A DNA stretch of 41,156 nucleotides from an uncultured Bacteroidota bacterium. Its GTDB lineage: Bacteria > Bacteroidota > Bacteroidia > Chitinophagales > Chitinophagaceae. Under the pieces are notes generated by a model, which saw only the letters and a list, made by a program, of their open reading frames with translations, ran no database searches and had not been told where the DNA came from. Position numbers and translations under genes: made by a program. The stretch lies in the NCBI GenBank assembly GCA_903877645.1, contig CAIRES010000009.1:1-41156 (forward strand), read 5' to 3'. Shown piece by piece: positions 5,411 to 19,835 of this stretch; position 1 is the first letter of the stretch, and each line of letters begins with the position of its first letter.

Positions 5411-5596
5411 TCAGGATAGCAACTTCTGCCTTAAAAGGAACTCAAGTTGCTCATTGGATACACTGAGCTTCTGGGTGGTTTCTTTTTCTTCCATGTGTTG
5501 TTTGTACACCTCGTATGCCCTGGTAATGGCCATATCCAGTTCTTCTTCGTTCCAACTGCTGTGCGTAAACTGGATGAATTTATTAAAAGTACCCAT
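5411..5596 (-). CDS. Small acidic helical protein, unknown
   Basis: I do not recognise this 61-residue protein. It is charged and predicted helical (EEELDMAITRAYEVYK, then MEEKETTQKLSVSNEQLEF), which reads like real protein rather than a shadow. Its first 12 codons overlap, head to head, the first codons of the truncated kinase on the other strand. Either its true start is the internal ATG at about 5533 (giving a 40-residue protein), or it too is a remnant whose 5' end was cut at the same breakpoint. It is convergent with the DUF922 gene with a 4-base gap. Confidence 0.4.
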   Translation of the reverse strand: MGTFNKFIQFTHSSWNEEELDMAITRAYEVYKQHMEEKETTQKLSVSNEQLEFLLRQKLLS

Positions 5597-6097
5597 GAGT
5601 ATTACAACCTGAAAAGAGGGAAGCTGGTTTTTGAAGATATTAATTTTGAGAACATATTGCAGGATACGGCTGCTCTTTTTCGGATAGCCGGTAAAATGGA
5701 CAGCATTAGGTTTACTTCTAACGTTATTCAGAACGATACTTTCCGCTCTGATGAAGTATCAATAAAAATTATATTAAATAATCTTTTTTCTAATGCGTTT
5801 AAGTTTCAAAAAAGAGGATCAACAGATAAATGGGTAGATGTAAATATTGAAGTAAAAGATGATGTGGCAAAAATAATTGTAAAAGATAATGGCATAGGCA
5901 TACATGAGAACCACATAAATAATATCTTTACGATGTTCTATAGGGCTACTTCTGAAGAATCTGGTTCCGGTTTTGGTTTGTACAATGTTAAAGACGCGTT
6001 AACCAAATTGAATGGAACCATAGAAGTTGCTTCTGTAGTTAACGAAGGAACAACATTTACAGTAACTATACCATGCAAGTCAAATGGCTCAAACTAA
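5561..6097 (+). pseudogene. 5'-truncated sensor histidine kinase (HATPase domain only)
   Basis: From about 5561 this frame reads as the end of a two-component kinase. The second dimerisation helix (KLDEFIKSTHEYY) is followed by the ATP-binding domain with N box NNLFSNAFKF, G1 box DNGIG and G2 box GSGFGLYNV. The phospho-acceptor histidine helix and any sensor domain are absent. Sequence upstream of 5561 in the same frame is low-complexity (GGFFFFHVLFVHLV) and not kinase-like. In-frame starts are a GTG at 5561 or the ATG of MDSIRF near 5696. It overlaps the downstream response regulator by 14 bases, typical of translational coupling. Without its histidine it cannot autophosphorylate in the usual way; it may be a relic or a stand-alone HATPase. 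Confidence 0.7.
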
Positions 6098-8331: not shown

Positions 8332-9012
8332 ATGATCAATAAGGGCGTATGGGAACAATTAAGTAGGGAACTTGCTGCGGGCCATGTGACGCTCATAGCC
8401 GTTTCCAAGCTGAAGCCCGCAAGTGATATTCAGCAATTGTATGACCTTGGGCAAAGAGATTTCGGGGAAAATTATGTGCAGGAACTGTCAGAGAAGCAAC
8501 CACTATTGCCGGATGATATCAGGTGGCATTTTATCGGCCACCTGCAAAGCAATAAAGTAAAATACATTGCTTCGTTTGTTCACCTCATTCATACCGTTGA
8601 TAGCCTTAAGCTGCTTACAGAGATCAATAAGCAGGCACAGAAATGCGGACGTACGATAGATGTGCTGCTGCAAATGTACATAGCCAATGAGGAAACTAAA
8701 TTCGGGCTTGACGAAAAAGAGCTCACAGACCTGGTGGCATCATATCTCGCACAAAAAAGTGAATTGCAAAATGTGCGCATCTGCGGGCTTATGGGTATGG
8801 CTACCAATAGTGATGACGCGCAACAGGTTCGTGCTGAGTTCGCTCACCTGCGCAATACATTCAATAAGCTTGCTGAAGGGCCATTCAAGGGCCGGTCGTA
8901 CTTTGCTGCCTGCTCTATGGGCATGAGCGCCGATCATAAAATGGCGATACAGGAAGGCAGCACTATGGTACGTATCGGCAGTATGCTATTCGGGGAAAGA
9001 AGTACCATCTAA
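8332..9012 (+). CDS. yggS: YggS/PROSC-family pyridoxal phosphate homeostasis protein
   Basis: This 226-residue protein belongs to the alanine-racemase-like TIM-barrel family that binds PLP and keeps free PLP and amino-acid metabolism in balance, without known catalysis. It shows the PLP lysine in TLIAVSKLKPASDI, the family motif RDFGENYVQEL, WHFIGHLQSNK, GLMGMAT and SMGMSADHKMAIQEGSTMVRIG with the phosphate-binding SMGMS. The ATG at 8332 follows panB by 24 bases. The family has no separate regulator here. It converges with the fusion gene at 9047 across only 34 bases, without a recognisable hairpin. Confidence 0.95.
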   Translation: MINKGVWEQLSRELAAGHVTLIAVSKLKPASDIQQLYDLGQRDFGENYVQELSEKQPLLPDDIRWHFIGHLQSNKVKYIASFVHLIHTVDSLKLLTEINKQAQKCGRTIDVLLQMYIANEETKFGLDEKELTDLVASYLAQKSELQNVRICGLMGMATNSDDAQQVRAEFAHLRNTFNKLAEGPFKGRSYFAACSMGMSADHKMAIQEGSTMVRIGSMLFGERSTI

Positions 9013-9046
9013 GCACTCCCTTCCCCGATCAAAAAATTCCTTTCAA

Positions 9047-11458
9047 TTATATTGTTGCTTCCTGTAGCACTTTTTCTGAGATATACCTGTTGATCTCAAA
9101 GATCACGTAGTTCAGCCGCTCAAATGTTTCGAAATAAGGGATACCTATCCTCAGTATATGATAATTGATGCCGCCTATCGGGTGATTTTTGATACACTTG
9201 GTATGCACCTGCGAATCATTGAGATATTTGTATAGGGGGTAAGGATCGAAATCAGTGAACGCGATCGCCACCAATGGGCTCGACTTCTCATCATTCAGGA
9301 ATACATGCTCTATACCGCTGTTTGAAAACACTTCACCGAGCCTTTTCTGGAAAAATGTGCGCAGGTACGATGACCTCGCCAATATAGTATCCTGCCCTGT
9401 TTGTTTAAATAATTGGAGTGCTTCTTCAATCGCGGGGTACATCTGGAAGTCCTGACCACCCGGTATGCTCAGTGCAATGGTTTCCGGCTTATAGCCAAGG
9501 CCGTGTCCGCTCCAGAACACACCTTCGATCCAGTCGTAGAAATCTGCCTTCATCCACATCAGTCCGCCGCCGTGTGGCCCGAATAGCCATTTGTGGGTAC
9601 TGCCGGCGATCACATCTGCATATCCGAAAGGAACCTCGTATAATCCTAACGACTGTGCCACATCCAATATGATCTTTGCCTCCGGTACGACTTGATGAAC
9701 CAGCTTCATCCATTTTTCAACAGGTGCAAGATGGCCGGTGTCGTAATAGACATGTGAGAAGAAGGCGAGGTGCGGTTTGATCTCTTTTAATTTAGCCGTC
9801 ATTAGTGCAGGATCTGCCAGTATATCATCTTCGATGTAATACACCTCATATTCCGGTAGATGATGGAAGCAGCCAATACCGCCTTCATGCTCATGCGTGG
9901 TAGTGAATATCCTGTATGGCCCCTTGGATACCTTATGCAACTTGCGCAGCATAGCCAGCGCTATCAGGTTCATCGTTTGCGAGGTGCTGTGCGTTACCGT
10001 AAGCTGGTACCCTTCACTTGGCCATAGTTCTGCGCACAACTTGTTGATCGCGCCATGGCTGTTTCTACCGTGCTCATAGCTGCCCAGCGGGTAGCCTTCC
10101 ATGTTCTTGGAGGAGTGCTGGTTGTACCGTATCTTTTTTACAGGGGTTGATGTGGTGCCCAGTGTTCCGGGGTTAAGGTTAATACGTTCAGACTGGAAGT
10201 GCTGCTCCCTGAAAAACTCCCAGTAATTATCGTCATCAATACGAACCGTCTCGAAAAGGGTAGGCTGTTTTTTTACCTTACTGATGTCGTCGGCCCATTT
10301 GATGCTCGGTACGAACAGGCCCTCAGCAATGTTGCCTTTGAACCGCTCCATGATGCGCAGCATTTCTTTGGTCACATCCGCAAAAGGGGAGTGCAATGTG
10401 TCATGACCGCTATAGTCGGTGTCAATGCCATACTCCGGCTTTGTTTCTACTTGTTCCTGGCGCGGGTCATGCGTTCTGATGATTGTTACATCATAACCCT
10501 CACCTGCAGCAATATTTTTTATAGATGCAGCGAGCTCGTTGATGGAGAAGTTAGTTTCAGTAACGTGGTTCACTACTTTATGCGTGCCGGCCTCAGGTAT
10601 GTCCTCAATAAAAGTAACCATTGAGTTTACAGAATCTCGCAATGCCATCAGGCCGGTGCGCTGGTTACCCTTGCCATACACAGTGAGTGGATGGCCATAA
10701 ACTGTTTGTGTGAGAAAACGATTCACTACTGTGCCGAATATATGATCATAATCACAGCGGGTATAGAGTGCTTCGCAATCAGCCATTTCTTCGGTAATGA
10801 AACCAAAAATGGTCGACTGCATTACATCAGTGATGCGCAGGTTCCATACCCGGCAAGACATGGCTACGTAATTAGAATCGTTGATCTTGGAGATGTGGTA
10901 AATGTCATCGGCCTCTCGCGGGTAGGGCATACGCTTAGTGGCCTCAACGCCCTTATGGCGCGGGAAGAAGTAACCTTCAGCAATATCTATTCCGCCTTGT
11001 GCATATTCGCCAAAGGAGCCCAGTTTAATGATGTGTGCTTGCGGCACATGCTTTCGCACAGCCCATAGCAGCCGCATATTACCCGCCTCATTATTATTTA
11101 CTGTAAATAGTGCCTCCTCTATCCCTTTCATCGAATAGGGGGCCGAGCATTGCTGGGCCAGGTGAAAGATGGTATGCGGTTTTTCATGCGCAATGATCTC
11201 TTCTATTCTGTCTGTGTTTACATCCAGCCTTACATAATAAAGGTTTTCCTGCCCGTGTACCTGGCTGAAGGCCTATATGCGCTCGGCTGGTTTGGCAATG
11301 GGTATCAGAGTCTGGAAGCCAAAGCTTTTTACAATGTTCCTGCGCCATTCATTGTCCGCAATAACAACTCTTGTTTTAGGGTATTTTACGGCTATTTTCA
11401 TGGCCAGGGGCCAGCCGTAATAACCATCTCCTCCAAGAACGAGTATAGTATTATTCAT
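9047..11458 (-). pseudogene. SQD1-like NAD epimerase fused to a class V aminotransferase, interrupted by an in-frame TAG
   Basis: Read from ATG 11456-11458 this is an 803-codon frame with a TAG at codon 62 (11273-11275). The first 61 codons form a Rossmann start, LVLGGDGYYGWPLA and IPIAKPAERI. After the TAG the same frame continues with FHLAQQCSAPYSMKGIEE. Domain 1 (to about codon 390) matches UDP-sulfoquinovose synthase: SFGEY, the catalytic YHISK at codons 187-191, and GHPLTVYGKGNQ. Domain 2 (from about codon 425) is a fold-type I PLP enzyme of the class V group, with LDVAQSLG and the Schiff-base lysine in GSTHKWLFGPHGGG (codon 623). An ATG at 11129-11131 could restart translation and yield 694 residues, but without the NAD-binding start. 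An MFS transporter lies upstream on the same strand. The fusion and the stop are seen; the substrate is unknown, with a sulfo-sugar or amino-sugar product plausible. Confidence 0.82.
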
Positions 11459-11577
11459 TTTATAAATTTTATTGCAAAAATTATGTATGGGTTAATGACT
11501 TCCTAATTTGGGTACTAATATATCGAATATGTGATAATTATTCAAAGAATTGTCATTATTTATAGGTGTAGTGACAT

Positions 11578-12786
11578 CTATCGCTTCCTTGTCTGGTGAT
11601 TCAACCATTGGAATCCTGCTGCAGTCAGAACGCTTACCGAACCCAGTATCCACCACAGTATATTGAAACCAAAATGCTGTATGATCTGAGTTCCGGCATA
11701 CGGGGCCATGATCTGTGCTACCGACCAGGCAGCAGTGTACATGCCTGCATACTGGCCCCTGTTGTGTTGGTCTGTTCTGCTCACCCAGAACGTGTTCATA
11801 AACGGCATGGAAAGCATCTCACCTGCGGTGATGATAAAAGTGGCACACAACGCAAGTGATCCTTGGCCCGGCATAATATTGAATAATACAAATGAGCTAC
11901 CTACCAGCAATGCGCCGGTGGTGATATACTGTAGATTTTTTCCACGTTTCTCTAATGTAAATACAAGGGCCATTTCAAATAGCGCTATCAGCAACCCGTT
12001 CAGTGCCATCGTCATCCCGATGAATAGTGGGGTGAGAAGAAGCCGCTGTTTAAAAAATAACGGCAATGTGGTGAATTGCTGGAAAAAGCAAAAGCCGAAC
12101 AATATGGTCAGTACAACGAAGACCAGGTAATGCCGGTCTCTGAATGCAGAACGTGTATGGCCGGCAGCAGGTTTGTCTTTTCTTGCAGGTGTATTGCTGT
12201 TCTTTTTAGGAGATAATACAGTGCGCAATAGTATAGCAGCTCCTATATTGGTTAAGCCATCTATCCAGAACAGCAGATTATAATTATGCGAGGCAATGAT
12301 ACCCCCGAGAGCCCCGCCTATGGCCCACCCCAGGTTGATGGACAATCTATTGAGCGAATAGGAGCGTGTGAGGTTTTCCTTTTTGCTGTATTCGGCTATG
12401 GCGGTGGCATTCGCCGGCCTGAATGAATCATTAAGTGTGGCGAGCAAAAAAGTGCAAACACATATGGCAGGGTAGCTTTGCAATTGTCCTAATACAATGA
12501 ACATTATGCCACCTGCTATTAGTGCCGATAGTTGCACATAATAAAAGCCCAACTTATCTGTCAGTTTACCGCCTATGAATCCACCACAAATTGCCCCAAG
12601 CCCAAAGAGTGCCATGATGATGCCTGCCCTGCCTATATTAAAATGCCTGCTTTCGGTAAGGTATAGAGACATGAAGGGGATCACCATGGTGCCGCTCCTG
12701 TTGATGAGCATGACCAGAGAAAGCCACCAGGTAGCCGGCGACAAGCCGCTGAATGCGCTTCTATATAAATTGGTCACTCTTTTCAT
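11578..12786 (-). CDS. Major facilitator superfamily transporter
   Basis: This is a roughly 402-residue, 12-helix MFS protein of the inner membrane, probably an exporter. MLINRSGTMVIPFMSLYLTE begins helix 1, and the loop 2-3 signature appears as GGFIGGKLTDKLGFYYVQ. Helices continue evenly to the basic C-terminus LNHQTRKR. The open frame extends to 12837, but the upstream start there is TTG. The ATG at 12784-12786 (MKRVTNLYRSAFSGLS) matches the usual start of Bacteroidota relatives, and an ATG at 12805-12807 is the alternative. It lies 119 bases upstream of the epimerase-aminotransferase fusion on the same strand and may export that enzyme's product. The substrate cannot be read from the sequence. 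Confidence 0.87.
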   Translation of the reverse strand: MKRVTNLYRSAFSGLSPATWWLSLVMLINRSGTMVIPFMSLYLTESRHFNIGRAGIIMALFGLGAICGGFIGGKLTDKLGFYYVQLSALIAGGIMFIVLGQLQSYPAICVCTFLLATLNDSFRPANATAIAEYSKKENLTRSYSLNRLSINLGWAIGGALGGIIASHNYNLLFWIDGLTNIGAAILLRTVLSPKKNSNTPARKDKPAAGHTRSAFRDRHYLVFVVLTILFGFCFFQQFTTLPLFFKQRLLLTPLFIGMTMALNGLLIALFEMALVFTLEKRGKNLQYITTGALLVGSSFVLFNIMPGQGSLALCATFIITAGEMLSMPFMNTFWVSRTDQHNRGQYAGMYTAAWSVAQIMAPYAGTQIIQHFGFNILWWILGSVSVLTAAGFQWLNHQTRKR

Positions 12787-12928
12787 GGCTACGGGCAAAA
12801 ATAACATTGTGGCGGGTTTTATTACCCGAACGGACAATTGTTATTCATATTTTGGGGAACAGGTTAATCAAAATTAATTTCAGGCAATATCATTTATGGG
12901 GTTTATGTTTAATTTCATTAAATAATCG

Positions 12929-12936
12929 TAATTTTC
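12929..12936 (+). promoter_or_regulatory. Conserved upstream element of giant protein 1 (TAATTTTC CAACCT)
   Basis: The stretch GTAATTTTCCAACCT recurs as GTAACTTTCCAACCT before the second paralogue (16409 on), at 67 and 70 bases before the respective ATGs. It resembles a -7 box with C in place of the last G. Conservation between paralogues supports a shared promoter or operator. Confidence 0.4.
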
Positions 12937-12995
12937 CAACCTTAAATGACTTTTAAGCTGTCTTATTGATCAATAACCCAGTGCTGATCTGCAGT

Positions 12996-15900
12996 ATGAA
13001 TAAATATATATTTTTTCTTCTTTTTCTTTTGGCTGGCTACAAGCTTCAGGCACAGTGCCTTGTTAGTTCGTTGCCTATAAATACAGGTTATAACTCACTT
13101 ACGGCTTCATCTGTTACCCCGGGTACAGATGGAGGAACGCCGGTTCCTGATCCACACTGGACAGTAACCGCAGAAAGCCCATCTATTGCAACAGCTATAT
13201 TTTCTACCGGGTTGATAGAGGTTGTTCCGGGAAGCGCTGCTGATGTTATACCGACTCTGGGTGGCTGGACAGGCGATCCGGTTGGTGTTCCGGGCGGCTG
13301 GCTTAGTTGCATCAATTCAAATACTTACAGCACTGATGGCACAGGACCCTCAGGCACCCCGTATAATATGACGTTCGGCAGGCCATTCCGTATGTGTGCC
13401 GATGATAACATAACGCTCGACTTGTACATAGCCAACGATAACTATATTTCCGCAATGGATATTGACGGTACTTTACTTACGTTTTCACAGCCGGCAGGTG
13501 CTGTATCTTCTTACTTCACGTCTTTTACGCATTTTACCCAGACTGTTTTTCTTGCCGCCGGCACACATACGATGCACGTTGTGGTGAATAACTACAATGA
13601 CGTATCACCTGAATCTAATCCCACCGGGCTAAACATTTATGGTACTGTTGCCTCTTCAACCGGGGTCAACACTATTGTCAGCGAAAGTTCTGTCGCATGT
13701 GATGCATATGTATGTAGCGGCACCTGCGATGCAATTAGTTTGCCTGATACATTACATGCCTGCTCGCGCGGCAATGTGGTACTTCCAGCAATACTGACCG
13801 GCACAAATATCGTTGACAGTATCGGGTGGAGCCCAACAGCGGGGCTCTCATCCAGCGCGGTTTTAACGCCGACACTTACTGTTGGCGGTACCTCCCGAAT
13901 GTATAATATTGTTGTGGTCTCGACAATACCCAATAACCTTGTTGCCAATGGCGATTTCAGCGGGGGTAATATTGATTTCAGCAGCGGCTACACATACGAG
14001 GGTACAGGAACAACCTCTACGCCGGGTTATTATGCGATCAACACAAATCCGTTCATATACGATGCTGCATGGCCGGTTATGGGCGACCATACTACCGGCA
14101 CAGGTAATATGCTGATCGTAGATGGGGCCTATTCTGCAACAGAAAGTTTCTGGTGTGAGACGATGGGGGTACTACCTAATACTGATTATATTTTCTCTGT
14201 TTGGGTCGCATTGCTACATGATCCGTTACCTTCTATTCAATTGAAAATAAACGGCATCGTTGTCGGTACTTTTGCCCCATCTGCTACTGCCGGTGCATGG
14301 ATACAATATACTCTGAAATGGAATAGTGGACTGGCTACAACAGCCAACATTTGTATGTATGACCTCAATACAGGAGGTTTTGGTAATGACTTTGCAATTG
14401 ATGACATCTCCTTCCAGCAACTATGCACACTAAAAGACAGTGTATATGTTGCGGTAACACCCACAGATACTACGGCATCACGCAGGGATACCACACTATG
14501 CCTTACATCTGCGCCAATAACACTTACAGGTACACCGGGTTATACGTCTTATCTCTGGAATACCAGTGCCTCTTCTCCTTCAATAAGTGTAGGCGCAAAT
14601 GGCACCTATTGGGTGTATAATGAAAATCTCTGCGTGGCTAAAATAGACACGTTTGGTGTTACGTTCATCCCGCTTCCGGTTGTCTCCATAGGCAATGATA
14701 CGGCCTTCTGTATCGGTAATACCATCACATTATATTCAGCTCAGCCTACTGGCAGTGCATACTTATGGAGTGACGGTACAACCGGTGACTCCATCCATGT
14801 GTCCACATCCGGTACTTACTGGCTACAGGTATATAATGGCACCAACAGCACCAATGGCTGTACCGTCACGGACTCTATACATGTGTTGGTTTCACCATTC
14901 CCAATAGTAGACCTCGGCCCTGATCAGTTCAACTGCCTGGGCAATGCGGTTACATTATCTTCGTCGGTAAGTTACATTGCACCCGCTTATTTGTGGAGCG
15001 ACTTTAGCACAGCGCCTTCGCTTACTGTTGCGACTACCGGCGCTTACTGGCTACAGGTTACCGTTGCCGGCTGTGCCGCCGCCGATAGCATCAATGTCAC
15101 TATCATCTACGACACCTTCACGTTGCACAATGTGGATACCGCTATCTGTAAAGGCAACGCGGTGCAGGCATACCTCACTATCAACCCATCTGCCACTGTA
15201 CAATGGCTGCCTACTGCCGGTATATCTGCATCTACAACGCCAAGTCCATTGATCATTCCTGATACATCGGAGGAATATACAGCGAACATTTCCATTGACG
15301 GCTGCCCTGTAAAAACAGCTTCGTTCTTTATCGATGTACAGCCTAATCCGCAGGTGTATATCGGTAATAACCGGTCTGTCTGTGCCAATGACACATTGCA
15401 TCTGCTGGCTTCTGTAACGCCGGCTTGGTATACGCACTATGCCTATCACTGGTCGCCTGCCGCGTACTTTGACGATAGTACCTATCCGTATGCAGTGTAC
15501 ACCCCGGGTACTGATACCACGATCATACTCACCGTTACCACCCCCGATAATTGCAAAGGTGTCGATTCTATAAAAGTCACAGTCCATCCGGCTGATTTTG
15601 CACACCTTGATTCTGTATTCAATGTATGCCCCGGCGATTCGGTGCAATTACAGCCAACGGGTGGGGTAGCCTATCACTGGAGCCCCGGCATATACCTCAG
15701 CGATTCCCTTTCTGCTGCTCCATGGCTCAAGGCGATCACCTCGCAGTATTACACCCTCATAGCTACCAGCGCTTTTGGTTGCCTCGATACGCTTTCTGCC
15801 CACATCACTGTGCGGCCTAACGCAGTGATCTTCCTGGATAAAGGGCCTATTACCCTATATCCCGGCCAGTCTTATCAAATAACACCACAAAGCAACTGCA

Positions 15901-16328
15901 CTAATTTCTCCTGGTTTCCAACTGCGGGACTAAGTGATGCCAACATATCCAATCCGCTGGCCACCCCCGGTATCAGCACAAAATACATAGTGCATGGTTC
16001 CAATGAATGGGGTTGTACGGCAGTTGATTCTTTGGATATCAACATAGACGGATCTTCTGCACTTTCTTTGCCTAACGCATTCACACCGGGTGGCGAGGTG
16101 AACGGCACACTGTATTTGCTGAACAGGGGCATCTCCTCGTTGCATTACTTCAGGGTGTTCAATCGCTGGGGCAATAAGGTATTCGAGACCAGCGACCTCT
16201 CCAAAGGATGGGACGGCAATTATAAAGGTACGCCCCAGCCTTATGATGTCTATGTATATGAGATAGACGCAGTGGGCAATGATGGTACTACTTTTCATAA
16301 ACAAGGAAATGTGACCCTTATTCGTTAA
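12996..16328 (+). CDS. Giant secreted Ig-like protein with T9SS type-B sorting domain, copy 1
   Basis: This 1110-residue surface protein has a signal peptide from the ATG at 12996 (MNKYIFFLLFLLAGYKLQAQ); the frame upstream of it lacks signal character. It has an N-terminal conserved module to about residue 230, then a galactose-binding-like beta-sandwich beginning NLVANGDFSGG and ending FAIDDISF. Several repeated Ig/PKD-like modules follow, with motifs such as IGNDTAFCIGNTITL, YLWSDGTTGDS and GTYWLQV. It ends with the gliding-motility-associated type-B sorting domain (LPNAFTPGGEVNG, FRVFNRWGNKVFET, GWDGNYKGTPQPYDVYVYE). Type-B proteins are moved across the outer membrane by the type IX system and often attached by PorU. 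The likely role is adhesion or matrix binding. Many D-(S/T)-(A/I/L/V/T) sites are potential O-glycosylation points. The 3' half is nearly identical to copy 2. Confidence 0.88.
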   Translation: MNKYIFFLLFLLAGYKLQAQCLVSSLPINTGYNSLTASSVTPGTDGGTPVPDPHWTVTAESPSIATAIFSTGLIEVVPGSAADVIPTLGGWTGDPVGVPGGWLSCINSNTYSTDGTGPSGTPYNMTFGRPFRMCADDNITLDLYIANDNYISAMDIDGTLLTFSQPAGAVSSYFTSFTHFTQTVFLAAGTHTMHVVVNNYNDVSPESNPTGLNIYGTVASSTGVNTIVSESSVACDAYVCSGTCDAISLPDTLHACSRGNVVLPAILTGTNIVDSIGWSPTAGLSSSAVLTPTLTVGGTSRMYNIVVVSTIPNNLVANGDFSGGNIDFSSGYTYEGTGTTSTPGYYAINTNPFIYDAAWPVMGDHTTGTGNMLIVDGAYSATESFWCETMGVLPNTDYIFSVWVALLHDPLPSIQLKINGIVVGTFAPSATAGAWIQYTLKWNSGLATTANICMYDLNTGGFGNDFAIDDISFQQLCTLKDSVYVAVTPTDTTASRRDTTLCLTSAPITLTGTPGYTSYLWNTSASSPSISVGANGTYWVYNENLCVAKIDTFGVTFIPLPVVSIGNDTAFCIGNTITLYSAQPTGSAYLWSDGTTGDSIHVSTSGTYWLQVYNGTNSTNGCTVTDSIHVLVSPFPIVDLGPDQFNCLGNAVTLSSSVSYIAPAYLWSDFSTAPSLTVATTGAYWLQVTVAGCAAADSINVTIIYDTFTLHNVDTAICKGNAVQAYLTINPSATVQWLPTAGISASTTPSPLIIPDTSEEYTANISIDGCPVKTASFFIDVQPNPQVYIGNNRSVCANDTLHLLASVTPAWYTHYAYHWSPAAYFDDSTYPYAVYTPGTDTTIILTVTTPDNCKGVDSIKVTVHPADFAHLDSVFNVCPGDSVQLQPTGGVAYHWSPGIYLSDSLSAAPWLKAITSQYYTLIATSAFGCLDTLSAHITVRPNAVIFLDKGPITLYPGQSYQITPQSNCTNFSWFPTAGLSDANISNPLATPGISTKYIVHGSNEWGCTAVDSLDINIDGSSALSLPNAFTPGGEVNGTLYLLNRGISSLHYFRVFNRWGNKVFETSDLSKGWDGNYKGTPQPYDVYVYEIDAVGNDGTTFHKQGNVTLIR
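14694..16328 (+). repeat. Near-identical 1635-base tract shared with 18201-19835
   Basis: From AATGATACGG to the stop codon the two giant genes align at a constant offset of 3507 bases with no insertions or deletions. I count eight amino-acid differences over 544 residues. Differences are clustered between long identical runs. Confidence 0.85.
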
Positions 16329-16416: not shown

Positions 16417-16478
16417 CAACCTATACGCCCCTTTTATATGTCTTAGTTAACAGTTAATTGGTCAATGACTCTTTAGGG

Positions 16479-19400
16479 ATGAATAAATACATACTCTTTT
16501 TTATTTTTATTGTCGCCGGATACAATCTGCATGCTCAATGCAATGTAAGTTCCCTGAAGATAAATACAGGTTATGATCCGCTGACAGGCACTGCGGTTGC
16601 ACCGGGTACCGATGGAGGTACACCCGTTCCGGATCCACATTGGACAGTAACTGCCGAAAGCCCTTCTATTGCGACCGCTATATTTTCTACCGGGTTGATA
16701 GAAGTTGTTCCGGGAAGTGCCGCTGATGTTATCCCCACACTTGGCGGATGGACAGGCGATCCCGGGGGTACACCTGGCGGCTGGCTCAGTTGCATCAATT
16801 CTAATACATATACTACAGATGGTACCGGCCCCAGCGGTACTGTATATAGCATGACCTTTGGCCGCTCTTTCAGGATGTGTACTGATGACAACATTACTCT
16901 TGATTTTTACATAGCAGCGGATAATTATGTGCCGGTAATGGATATAGATGGTACAACTCTTTCTTTTGCAGAGACCCTACCGGCAGTAGGAACTTATTTC
17001 ACTACATTCACACATTATACACAAACAATTGCGCTGACTGCCGGTACACACACAGTACATGTAACAGTTATTAATTACAATGATGCGGGTGGGCCTGAAT
17101 CTAATCCCAGTGGCCTCAATATCTACGGCACGGTTGCATCCGCAACAGGTGTGAATACACTTGTGAGCGAAAGCTCCGCCAGTTGCGCCACGTTTTCCTG
17201 CGGCGGTATTTGCAATGCACTAAGCCTTGTGGATACACTGCATCAGTGTGCGGGCACTACTGTTGTTCTTCCCGCTTCGATCGTTGGTACTGATTCAGTA
17301 TTAAGCATATTGTGGACACCCCCTACCGGCTTGTCTGCGACCAATGTTATTGCGCCAACACTTACTGTTGGTACCGTTTCATCATATTATTATATCACTG
17401 TAAAATCGCTGGTGCCTGACAATTTGGTCGCTAATGGTGACTTTGGTGCAGGCAATACGGGGTTTACCAGCTCATACACCTATTCGGCGCCCCCAAGCAG
17501 TATATTGATAGAAGGCGACTATTCTGTTTATACAAACCCTTTCGGTGTCCATAGTGGGTTTACCTCATTTGGCGACCATACCACGGGAACAGGCAATATG
17601 CTGATCCTTAACGGCGGCCCTACTCCCACAGATGTATGGTGCGAAACGGTGCCTGTGACACCGAATACCGACTATGATTTTTCAGCATGGATAGCAAATT
17701 GTTCATCCGTAACTGTAGGCCCTGATGTGCCGATCATGCAGTTCAAGATCAATGGCGTTTTAATCGGCACACCTACTTCTATCACTGCTGCGCCGGGTAC
17801 CTGGGTGAATTTTTTCAATACCTGGAATAGCGGGCTCAGCACTACTGCCAGCATTTGTATTTATGATGCTAATACCGCTGTTGCAGGTAATGATTTTGTG
17901 CTCGATGATATTTCTTTCGTGCCCATTTGCGTGACCAAGGACAGCGTTTATATTGATGTCAAAATACCAGACACCACTACCGCGCTTGTCATGGATACTA
18001 CGTTATGCATTGACAAAGGGCCGCTTACACTTAGTGGCGTTCCCGGCTATCTGGCTTACGCCTGGAATACCGGCGCAGGGTCAATCTCCGTAGCCGAGGG
18101 TACCAGCGGTACCTATTGGGTGCGCAATCTCAACCTCTGTGCCGTCCTGGTGGACACGTTTCATATCAATTACATTCCTCTTCCCAATGTCTTCATTGGT
18201 AATGATACGGCCTTCTGTATCGGCAATACCATCACATTATATTCCGCTCAGCCTACTGGCAGTGCATACTTATGGAGTGACGGTACAACCGGTGACTCCA
18301 TCCATGTGTCCACATCCGGTACTTACTGGCTACAGGTATACAATGGCACCAACAGCACCAATGGCTGTACCGTCACGGATTCTATACATGTGCTGGTATC
18401 TCCATTCCCTATCGTAGATCTCGGCCCTGATCAGTTCAACTGCCTGGGCAATGCGGTTACATTATCTTCGTCTGTGAGTTACATTGCGCCTGCTTACCTT
18501 TGGAGTAACTTCAGTACAGGGCCTTCGCTTACTGTTGCGACTACCGGCGCTTACTGGCTACAGGTTACCGTTGCCGGCTGTGCCGCCGCCGATAGCATCA
18601 ATGTCACTATCATCTACGACACCTTTACCCTGCACAATGTGGATACCGCTATCTGTAAAGGCAATGCTGTGCAGGCATACCTCACTATCAACCCATCTGC
18701 CACTGTACAATGGCTGCCTACTGCCGGTATATCTGCATCAACAACGCCAAGTCCATTGATCATTCCTGATACATCTGCCGAGTACACCGCAAACATTTCC
18801 ATTGATGGCTGCCCGGTAAAAACAGCTTCGTTCTTTATCGATGTACAGCCTAATCCGCAGGTGTATATCGGTAATAACCGGTCTGTCTGTGCCAATGACA
18901 CATTGCATCTGCTGGCTTCTGTAACGCCGGCGTGGTACACGCATTATGCCTATCACTGGTCGCCCGCCGCCTACTTTGACGATAGCACCTATCCTTATGC
19001 AGTGTACACCCCGGGTACTGATACTACGATCATACTTACGGTGACAACCCCTGATAATTGTAAAGGTGTCGATTCTATAAAGGTGGCCGTTCATCCGGCT
19101 GATTTCGCGCATCTTGATTCTGTATTCAATGTATGCCCCGGCGATTCGGTGCAATTACAGCCAACGGGTGGGGTAGCCTATCACTGGAGTCCCGGCATAT
19201 ACCTGAGCGATTCCCTTTCTGCTGCTCCATGGCTCAAGGCAATAACCTCGCAGTATTACACGCTGATAGCTACCAGCGCTTTTGGTTGCCTCGATACGCT
19301 TTCTGCACACATCACTGTGCGGCCCAACGCAGTGATCTTCCTGGACAATGGCCCAATCACTTTATATCCCGGACAGTCATACCAGATAACACCACAAAGC

Positions 19401-19835
19401 AACTGCACCTATTTTTCCTGGTTCCCGACTGCCGGACTAAGTGATGCCAACATATCCAATCCGCTGGCCACCCCCGGTATCAGCACAAAGTATATAGTGC
19501 ATGGTTCCAACGAATGGGGTTGTACAGCAATTGATTCTTTGGATATCAACATAGACGGATCTTCTGCACTTTCTTTGCCCAACGCATTCACACCGGGTGG
19601 CGAAGTAAATGGCACATTGTATTTGCTGAACAGGGGCATATCATCACTGCATTACTTCAGGGTATTCAATCGCTGGGGCAATAAAGTATTCGAGACCAGC
19701 GACCTCTCTAAAGGATGGGACGGCAATTATAAAGGTACTCCTCAGCCTTATGACGTATATGTATATGAGATAGAGGCTGTGGGCAACGACGGCACCACAT
19801 TCCACAAACAGGGAAATGTGACCCTTATACGGTAG
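16479..19835 (+). CDS. Giant secreted Ig-like protein with T9SS type-B sorting domain, copy 2
   Basis: This is a tandem paralogue of the preceding gene, 1118 residues from the ATG at 16479 (MNKYILFFIFIVAGYNLHAQ signal peptide). The order is the same: N-terminal module (GTPVPDPHWTVTAESPSIAT shared), a beta-sandwich starting NLVANGDFGAG and ending FVLDDISF, Ig-like repeats, and the type-B sorting domain ending KQGNVTLIR. The middle (about residues 245-570) has diverged strongly from copy 1, whereas the last 544 residues are almost identical. The variable middle suggests different binding specificity presented on a common stalk and anchor. Export is inferred through the type IX system. The 151 bases between the two genes contain a duplicated leader, so each copy probably has its own promoter. 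Confidence 0.88.
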   Translation: MNKYILFFIFIVAGYNLHAQCNVSSLKINTGYDPLTGTAVAPGTDGGTPVPDPHWTVTAESPSIATAIFSTGLIEVVPGSAADVIPTLGGWTGDPGGTPGGWLSCINSNTYTTDGTGPSGTVYSMTFGRSFRMCTDDNITLDFYIAADNYVPVMDIDGTTLSFAETLPAVGTYFTTFTHYTQTIALTAGTHTVHVTVINYNDAGGPESNPSGLNIYGTVASATGVNTLVSESSASCATFSCGGICNALSLVDTLHQCAGTTVVLPASIVGTDSVLSILWTPPTGLSATNVIAPTLTVGTVSSYYYITVKSLVPDNLVANGDFGAGNTGFTSSYTYSAPPSSILIEGDYSVYTNPFGVHSGFTSFGDHTTGTGNMLILNGGPTPTDVWCETVPVTPNTDYDFSAWIANCSSVTVGPDVPIMQFKINGVLIGTPTSITAAPGTWVNFFNTWNSGLSTTASICIYDANTAVAGNDFVLDDISFVPICVTKDSVYIDVKIPDTTTALVMDTTLCIDKGPLTLSGVPGYLAYAWNTGAGSISVAEGTSGTYWVRNLNLCAVLVDTFHINYIPLPNVFIGNDTAFCIGNTITLYSAQPTGSAYLWSDGTTGDSIHVSTSGTYWLQVYNGTNSTNGCTVTDSIHVLVSPFPIVDLGPDQFNCLGNAVTLSSSVSYIAPAYLWSNFSTGPSLTVATTGAYWLQVTVAGCAAADSINVTIIYDTFTLHNVDTAICKGNAVQAYLTINPSATVQWLPTAGISASTTPSPLIIPDTSAEYTANISIDGCPVKTASFFIDVQPNPQVYIGNNRSVCANDTLHLLASVTPAWYTHYAYHWSPAAYFDDSTYPYAVYTPGTDTTIILTVTTPDNCKGVDSIKVAVHPADFAHLDSVFNVCPGDSVQLQPTGGVAYHWSPGIYLSDSLSAAPWLKAITSQYYTLIATSAFGCLDTLSAHITVRPNAVIFLDNGPITLYPGQSYQITPQSNCTYFSWFPTAGLSDANISNPLATPGISTKYIVHGSNEWGCTAIDSLDINIDGSSALSLPNAFTPGGEVNGTLYLLNRGISSLHYFRVFNRWGNKVFETSDLSKGWDGNYKGTPQPYDVYVYEIEAVGNDGTTFHKQGNVTLIR
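18201..19835 (+). repeat. Near-identical tract, partner of 14694-16328
   Basis: Second member of the 1635-base direct repeat. Synonymous differences are patchy (for example around 18378-18420 and 18770-18800) between stretches without any change, as expected after gene conversion. Confidence 0.85.

Follow-up and report, generated by a model that had tools for sequence, protein, structure and literature searches.

The closest described systems to the protein considered here are the UDP-sulfoquinovose synthases SQD1, SqdB and Agl3. The accessible part of PMC8987622 gives their active-site fingerprint as [ST]MG and describes a 5,6-dehydration, leaving an exo-glycal, that UDP-sulfoquinovose synthase performs when sulfite is absent. 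According to the accessible part of PMC4388408, replacement of His95, Arg101, Met145, Tyr182 or Lys186 by alanine abolishes the activity of Agl3, T144A stays active and S180A activity is reduced; as presented there, these mutants do not establish sulfite binding by Arg101. Among class V PLP enzymes, the C-terminal Arg348 of EgtE anchors the substrate carboxylate (PMC10805701, partial text), and in lincosamide synthesis the PLP enzymes LmbF and CcbF act on S-glycosyl-L-cysteine (PMC11794154, partial text). A full-text literature search, whose coverage leaves most subscription journals outside, found no description of a protein joining an SQD1-type domain to a class V domain. Within that literature, the remark of an earlier sequence-only reading of the locus that no characterised enzyme has this architecture still stands.

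The fused reading frame and its relatives

The window, the whole stretch of DNA analysed, comprises 41,156 nucleotides from an uncultured member of the Chitinophagaceae. Translation and alignment with relatives delimited a fusion frame of 803 codons plus stop, with one interruption, at 9047..11458 on the minus strand. Codons 1 to approximately 395 (10274..11458, minus strand) encode an SQD1-like NAD-dependent SDR half, recognised by matches to NF041015, a model for UDP-sulfoquinovose synthase, before and after the interrupting stop and by phmmer to Arabidopsis SQD1, while approximately codons 403–803 (9050..10252, minus strand) encode a class V PLP half, recognised by PF00266 and by its kept PLP-site residues. 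The catalytic YHISK motif of the SDR half (Tyr187 and Lys191; 10886..10900, minus strand), GHPLTVYGKG, and STHKW with the PLP Schiff-base lysine at codon 623 (9590..9592, minus strand) were all found in one frame of the window translation, and the two catalytic sites were placed by alignment of the 13 fusions. The 61 residues preceding the stop include the NAD-binding motif GGDGYYGWP and score 35.4 bits against NF041015. The 741 residues that follow score 268.9 bits against the same model (cut-off 575), 51.3 bits against PF00266 and 35.6 bits against PF01370 (Epimerase). The best solved relative of the SDR half, searched with the part after the stop, was Arabidopsis SQD1 (1qrr, phmmer E 6e-60), and PF00266 was matched in all ten fusion members scanned. 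AlphaFold on seven sequences gave no good model (mean pLDDT 43.9). Translation and profiles thus bore out the claim that an SQD1-type and a class V domain share a frame with the three motifs quoted for it; the observation is partly confirmed, the in-frame TAG having been overlooked in the earlier reading.

The same two-domain architecture was present in 13 distinct genomes, namely 10 of the 35 genomes of the genus and 3 further ones among 294 genomes of the family. In the sampled sets, which overlap, it occurred in 5/294 family genomes (two of the five within the genus), in 2/198 order genomes and in 1/395 phylum genomes, the last being solely the window's own, so that its distribution is patchy even inside the genus. 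A contig scan returned six relatives, each with both halves. Internal stops were absent from 11 of the 13 fusions, counting G837/L012 whose gene begins at a contig end, and the window and its sister L009 have one each. The identities of the two halves correlate with an r of 0.94 over 78 pairs, a value reached in none of 5000 permutations, and the 13 SDR halves form one clade with a FastTree support of 1.000. A search with the PLP half in the 294 family genomes gave five matches above 475 bits, all of them fusions, and 37 others at or below 67.5 bits. SDR-only relatives were seen in G195 of the family sample and G822 of the order sample, and a class V profile found no class V gene near the SDR-only genes at eight such loci. 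No relative of the PLP half was found on viral contigs; 36 plasmid records matched one half, none of them covering 80% of the query, and Rfam gave no match in window positions 8500–13500. Recurrence of the frame in 13 genomes, co-divergence of its halves and the constant fusion of strong PLP-half matches show that the domains are more than chance neighbours: the fusion is a genuine conserved architecture and a single enzyme family. One member, G839 (L087, 7012–9594), has a longer linker and a length of 860 aa, and lies in another genomic setting.

The window copy carries an in-frame TAG at codon 62 (11273..11275, minus strand), identified in translation and by comparison with the sense codons of other fusion genes. 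It is the sole internal stop of the frame, and as assembled the gene cannot yield the full protein because of it; the longest ATG-initiated ORF in frame (9047–11131, 694 aa) is without GGDGYYGWP. The stop in L009 (identical, by its coordinates, with G862 in both contig and gene) lies at codon 92 and hence differs from that of the window. Between window and L009, dN/dS was 0.032 for codons 1–92, 0.010 for codons 93–395 and 0.042 for the PLP half, rough values since dS was 1.5–3.0 and near saturation. When the neighbouring window genes were aligned with ORFs of five relative loci, no stops were encountered except in one antisense ORF (39% identity, three stops), which we called spurious. That the locus is a decaying, functionless relic in the genome of the window is a view to which we give slightly less than an even chance: the separate stops of window and L009 and the additional absence of the MFS neighbour in L009 favour it, but dN/dS was between 0.01 and 0.04 on both flanks of the stop in an otherwise stop-free frame, and the stop-free neighbour genes are compatible with a change of very recent date or with an error in the consensus. 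As dN/dS is low on both sides of the stop, constraint held until recently, which leaves two readings of the window copy, a pseudogene of very recent origin or an error in the assembled consensus.

Active-site residues of the two halves

In SQD1 numbering, His96, Tyr149, Tyr182, His183, Lys186, Asp270 and Arg327 were kept in all 13 fusions and Glu148 in 12, a set that fits an NAD-dependent sugar SDR. Other positions were changed throughout, with Thr145 replaced by Ser, Ser180 by Asp and Arg263, the Arg of QTR, by Thr in 13/13. At the position of Arg101, which is codon 104 in the window (11147..11149, minus strand; a Cys codon in the alignment of the 13 fusions), Cys was found in 12 fusions and Pro in one. 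Phe occupies the position of Met146 in 10/13 and Met in 3/13; the [ST]MG fingerprint is accordingly complete only in G068, G148 and G262, its Ser being present in all 13. The lost residues argue against UDP-sulfoquinovose synthase. Arg101 by itself is not a clean test, because Pro also occurs there in SDR-only relatives scoring up to 519 bits on the synthase model, the value for G195. Five of the eight SDR-only references, including SQD1 and S. meliloti SqdB, have Arg at this position, and the three with Pro (Haladaptatus, G195 and G822) are uncharacterised proteins. The score against NF041015 likewise leaves synthase function possible, as the window reaches 321 bits and S. meliloti SqdB, which we take to be a genuine UDP-sulfoquinovose synthase, only 332, both below the equivalog cut-off of 575. 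Judged from these residues, the SDR half is probably not a UDP-sulfoquinovose synthase, and loss of the QTR Arg could mean that its substrate is other than a nucleotide sugar.

Two further SQD1-like genes were noted in the course of the comparison. L096 (2995–4182), the one SDR-only relative on viral contigs, encodes a protein with Pro in place of Arg101 on a 228-kb IMG/VR contig, surrounded by glycosyltransferase-like and methyltransferase-like ORFs. In Pseudonocardia autotrophica (L028, 7995–12933) a PLP-dependent gene of the cysteine synthase family and an MFS gene follow an SQD1-like gene that retains Arg101, a separate-gene parallel with another PLP fold.

In the PLP half, Asn429, Gln494, His522, His524, Asp599, Gln602, His622, Lys623, Lys754 and Arg770 (L010 numbering) were kept in 13/13 fusions, which thus all carry the class V markers, namely the Schiff-base Lys, the PLP Asp and Gln. 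Profile matches to the PDB were uniformly weak and comprised PvdN (52.6 bits), C-DES (42.5), Egt2 (33.5) and EgtE (26.8) together with cysteine desulfurases and kynureninase. Models for EgtE, SufS, EF2568-type desulfurase and PvdN were matched in each of ten members scanned, and the first member scored lay below every family cut-off (EgtE, 38.6 bits; equivalog cut-off 400). A standalone protein of the window's own genome, L003, shares the N-terminal YW...LNxGTxG pattern. In a distant alignment with the IscS-like proteins of the same genome, no counterpart of their desulfurase-Cys loop was found in the PLP half; Cys755, near the missing loop and at another position, is kept in 12/13 fusions and is Leu in G839. 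A conserved catalytic Cys in the PLP half was considered and rejected, Cys353 of A4 being invariant in ten of ten members and Leu in G839 once 13 were compared. The Arg of the I[LV]RxG motif, Arg770, is equated with EgtE Arg348 by motif and not by alignment (PMC10805701, partial text), and retention of this putative carboxylate anchor favours an amino-acid substrate. C-S lyase chemistry by the PLP half is rather doubtful on this evidence, some sulfur chemistry being possible given that the fold group includes cysteine desulfurases and C-S lyases.

Genomic neighbourhood

Upstream of the fusion on the same strand lies an MFS transporter gene (11578..12837, minus strand; PF07690, 156.6 bits), whose relatives start at 12786. 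On the other side is a PLP-homeostasis protein matching PF01168 (8332..9012, plus strand), which we take to be YggS and which was found in 21/21 genus genomes, genus-wide beside the MFS gene. The proposal that the MFS protein exports the product of the fusion failed on comparison of these genomes. Although the MFS gene adjoins the fusion in 7 of 12 fusion loci with a visible upstream side (window, L010, L022, L013, L014, L088 and L089), it occurs in 18/21 genus genomes and directly adjoins the YggS gene with no fusion between in L092, L093 and L094 and, by coordinates, in G835 and G836; in L095 a single ORF of 502 aa separates the two. The fusion was not found in any of these six genomes. The MFS protein was accordingly rejected as a functional partner and is a positional neighbour that forms no part of the fusion system.

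ORFs of 489–502 aa belonging to one cluster follow the fusion after 6 bases in L022 and 9 bases in L012 and lie on the same strand in L088; no Pfam match was obtained for the two copies scanned, and L095, which lacks the fusion, has a member too. PMT_2-like proteins are encoded next to the fusion, on the opposite strand, in L014 (a match short of the cut-off) and in L089 (a match above it). In G068 the fusion adjoins Alg14-like and GT28-C proteins with best matches to PssD/PssE just under the NCBIfam cut-offs, and G148 has relatives of both, the profile scan having been run on G068. These neighbours point to glycan synthesis, but no glycosyltransferase stands beside the window's own fusion and the G839 fusion is in an unrelated setting. 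Elsewhere in the window, two mutually related ORFs of about 1120 aa (12966–16328 and 16458–19835) are also found next to the MFS gene in relatives, and a sensor-kinase-like gene (5540–6094) aligns to relatives of 368–509 aa only from about residue 184–331, its front part being missing or replaced.

Proposed function and comparison with known enzymes

The fusion is a real, narrow and uncharacterised enzyme family in which known domains are combined in a new way, coupling redox chemistry on nucleotide sugars with PLP chemistry on amino acids. We think it reasonably probable that the family is a bifunctional nucleotide-sugar plus amino-acid enzyme of surface-glycan synthesis. What the comparison establishes is the fusion, its conservation and which residues are kept or lost; substrates, order of steps and glycan role are inferred. 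The N-terminal SDR half would most likely oxidise a nucleotide-hexose at C4 and perhaps also dehydrate the sugar at C5–C6. The C-terminal half, a complete class V PLP enzyme, would most likely act on an alpha-amino acid or an amino-acid conjugate, because an Arg that would correspond to the carboxylate anchor of this fold is kept. Being fused, the halves could pass an unstable sugar intermediate directly on to an amino-acid-derived group. If active, the family predicts a modified sugar that has not yet been assigned to a gene; intact relatives in related genomes make the fusion testable, the window copy being less telling because it is interrupted.

Other divisions of labour between the halves were weighed against this. 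In a sulfo-sugar scheme that spells out the idea of the earlier reading, the PLP half would free sulfite or another sulfur species, with cysteine sulfinate and cysteate as possible sources, and the SQD1-like half would add it at C6 to give UDP-sulfoquinovose or a close relative. Identity of 34–35% between the SDR half and SQD1, matches of the PLP half to the desulfurase and EgtE models in 10/10 members (all far under cut-off) and the explanation that sulfite channelling would offer for the fusion are in its favour. Against this, Arg101, Ser180 and the QTR Arg are replaced in every fusion and Met146 in 10/13, the Agl3 alanine mutants of Arg101 and Met145 are inactive (PMC4388408, partial text), and the PLP half is without the IscS-like catalytic-Cys stretch, the nearby Cys755 being Leu in one fusion. 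The scheme appears weakened, the replaced sulfite-site residues telling against its product and the fold group still leaving some sulfur chemistry possible, and we regard it as improbable. The earlier interpretation is on the whole partly supported: its two-domain architecture holds, its sulfo-sugar part is weakened and its exporter part is rejected. As hard to favour as the sulfo-sugar scheme is a true aminotransferase that aminates a 4-keto sugar from the SDR half. Such a sugar could be formed and the Schiff-base lysine is present, yet sugar aminotransferases are members of the DegT/DnrJ family rather than of class V, and profile comparison places the PLP half closest, among solved structures, to PvdN, cysteine desulfurases and C-S lyases.

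A more specific candidate, to which we assign even less weight, is a thiosugar synthase whose product, a 6-deoxy-6-thio sugar nucleotide, would go into a surface glycan. Here the SDR half would make a UDP-4-keto-5,6-ene hexose. In a site that has lost the presumed sulfite Arg, the thiol of cysteine would add to C6 in place of sulfite; once the 4-keto group had been reduced, the PLP half would cleave the cysteine C-S bond. Each half-reaction has a precedent, in the 5,6-ene formation by Agl3, the C-S cleavage of EgtE and the PLP enzymes acting on S-glycosyl-cysteine, and the combination would be new.

The preferred bifunctional enzyme compares with known systems as follows. With SQD1, SqdB and Agl3 the fusions share GxxGxxG, [ST]xG, the YxxxK pattern, His96, Tyr149 and Arg327, but they differ in having Cys or Pro for Arg101, Asp for Ser180, Thr for the QTR Arg and Ser for Thr145, and in carrying an extra PLP half of 400 residues. 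Their active-site fingerprint is S[FM]G, whereas it is TCE and TDK in 5,6-dehydrating enzymes, on which we know of no PLP half. The dehydration to an exo-glycal is a reaction that UDP-sulfoquinovose synthase also carries out when sulfite is absent (PMC8987622, partial text). The PLP half resembles EgtE/Egt2, C-DES, PvdN and CefD-like class V enzymes in its profile matches and differs from them in being distant and fused to an SDR. LmbF and CcbF provide a precedent for PLP chemistry on S-glycosyl-L-cysteine (PMC11794154, partial text); unlike the fused SDR-PLP protein, they are separate proteins.
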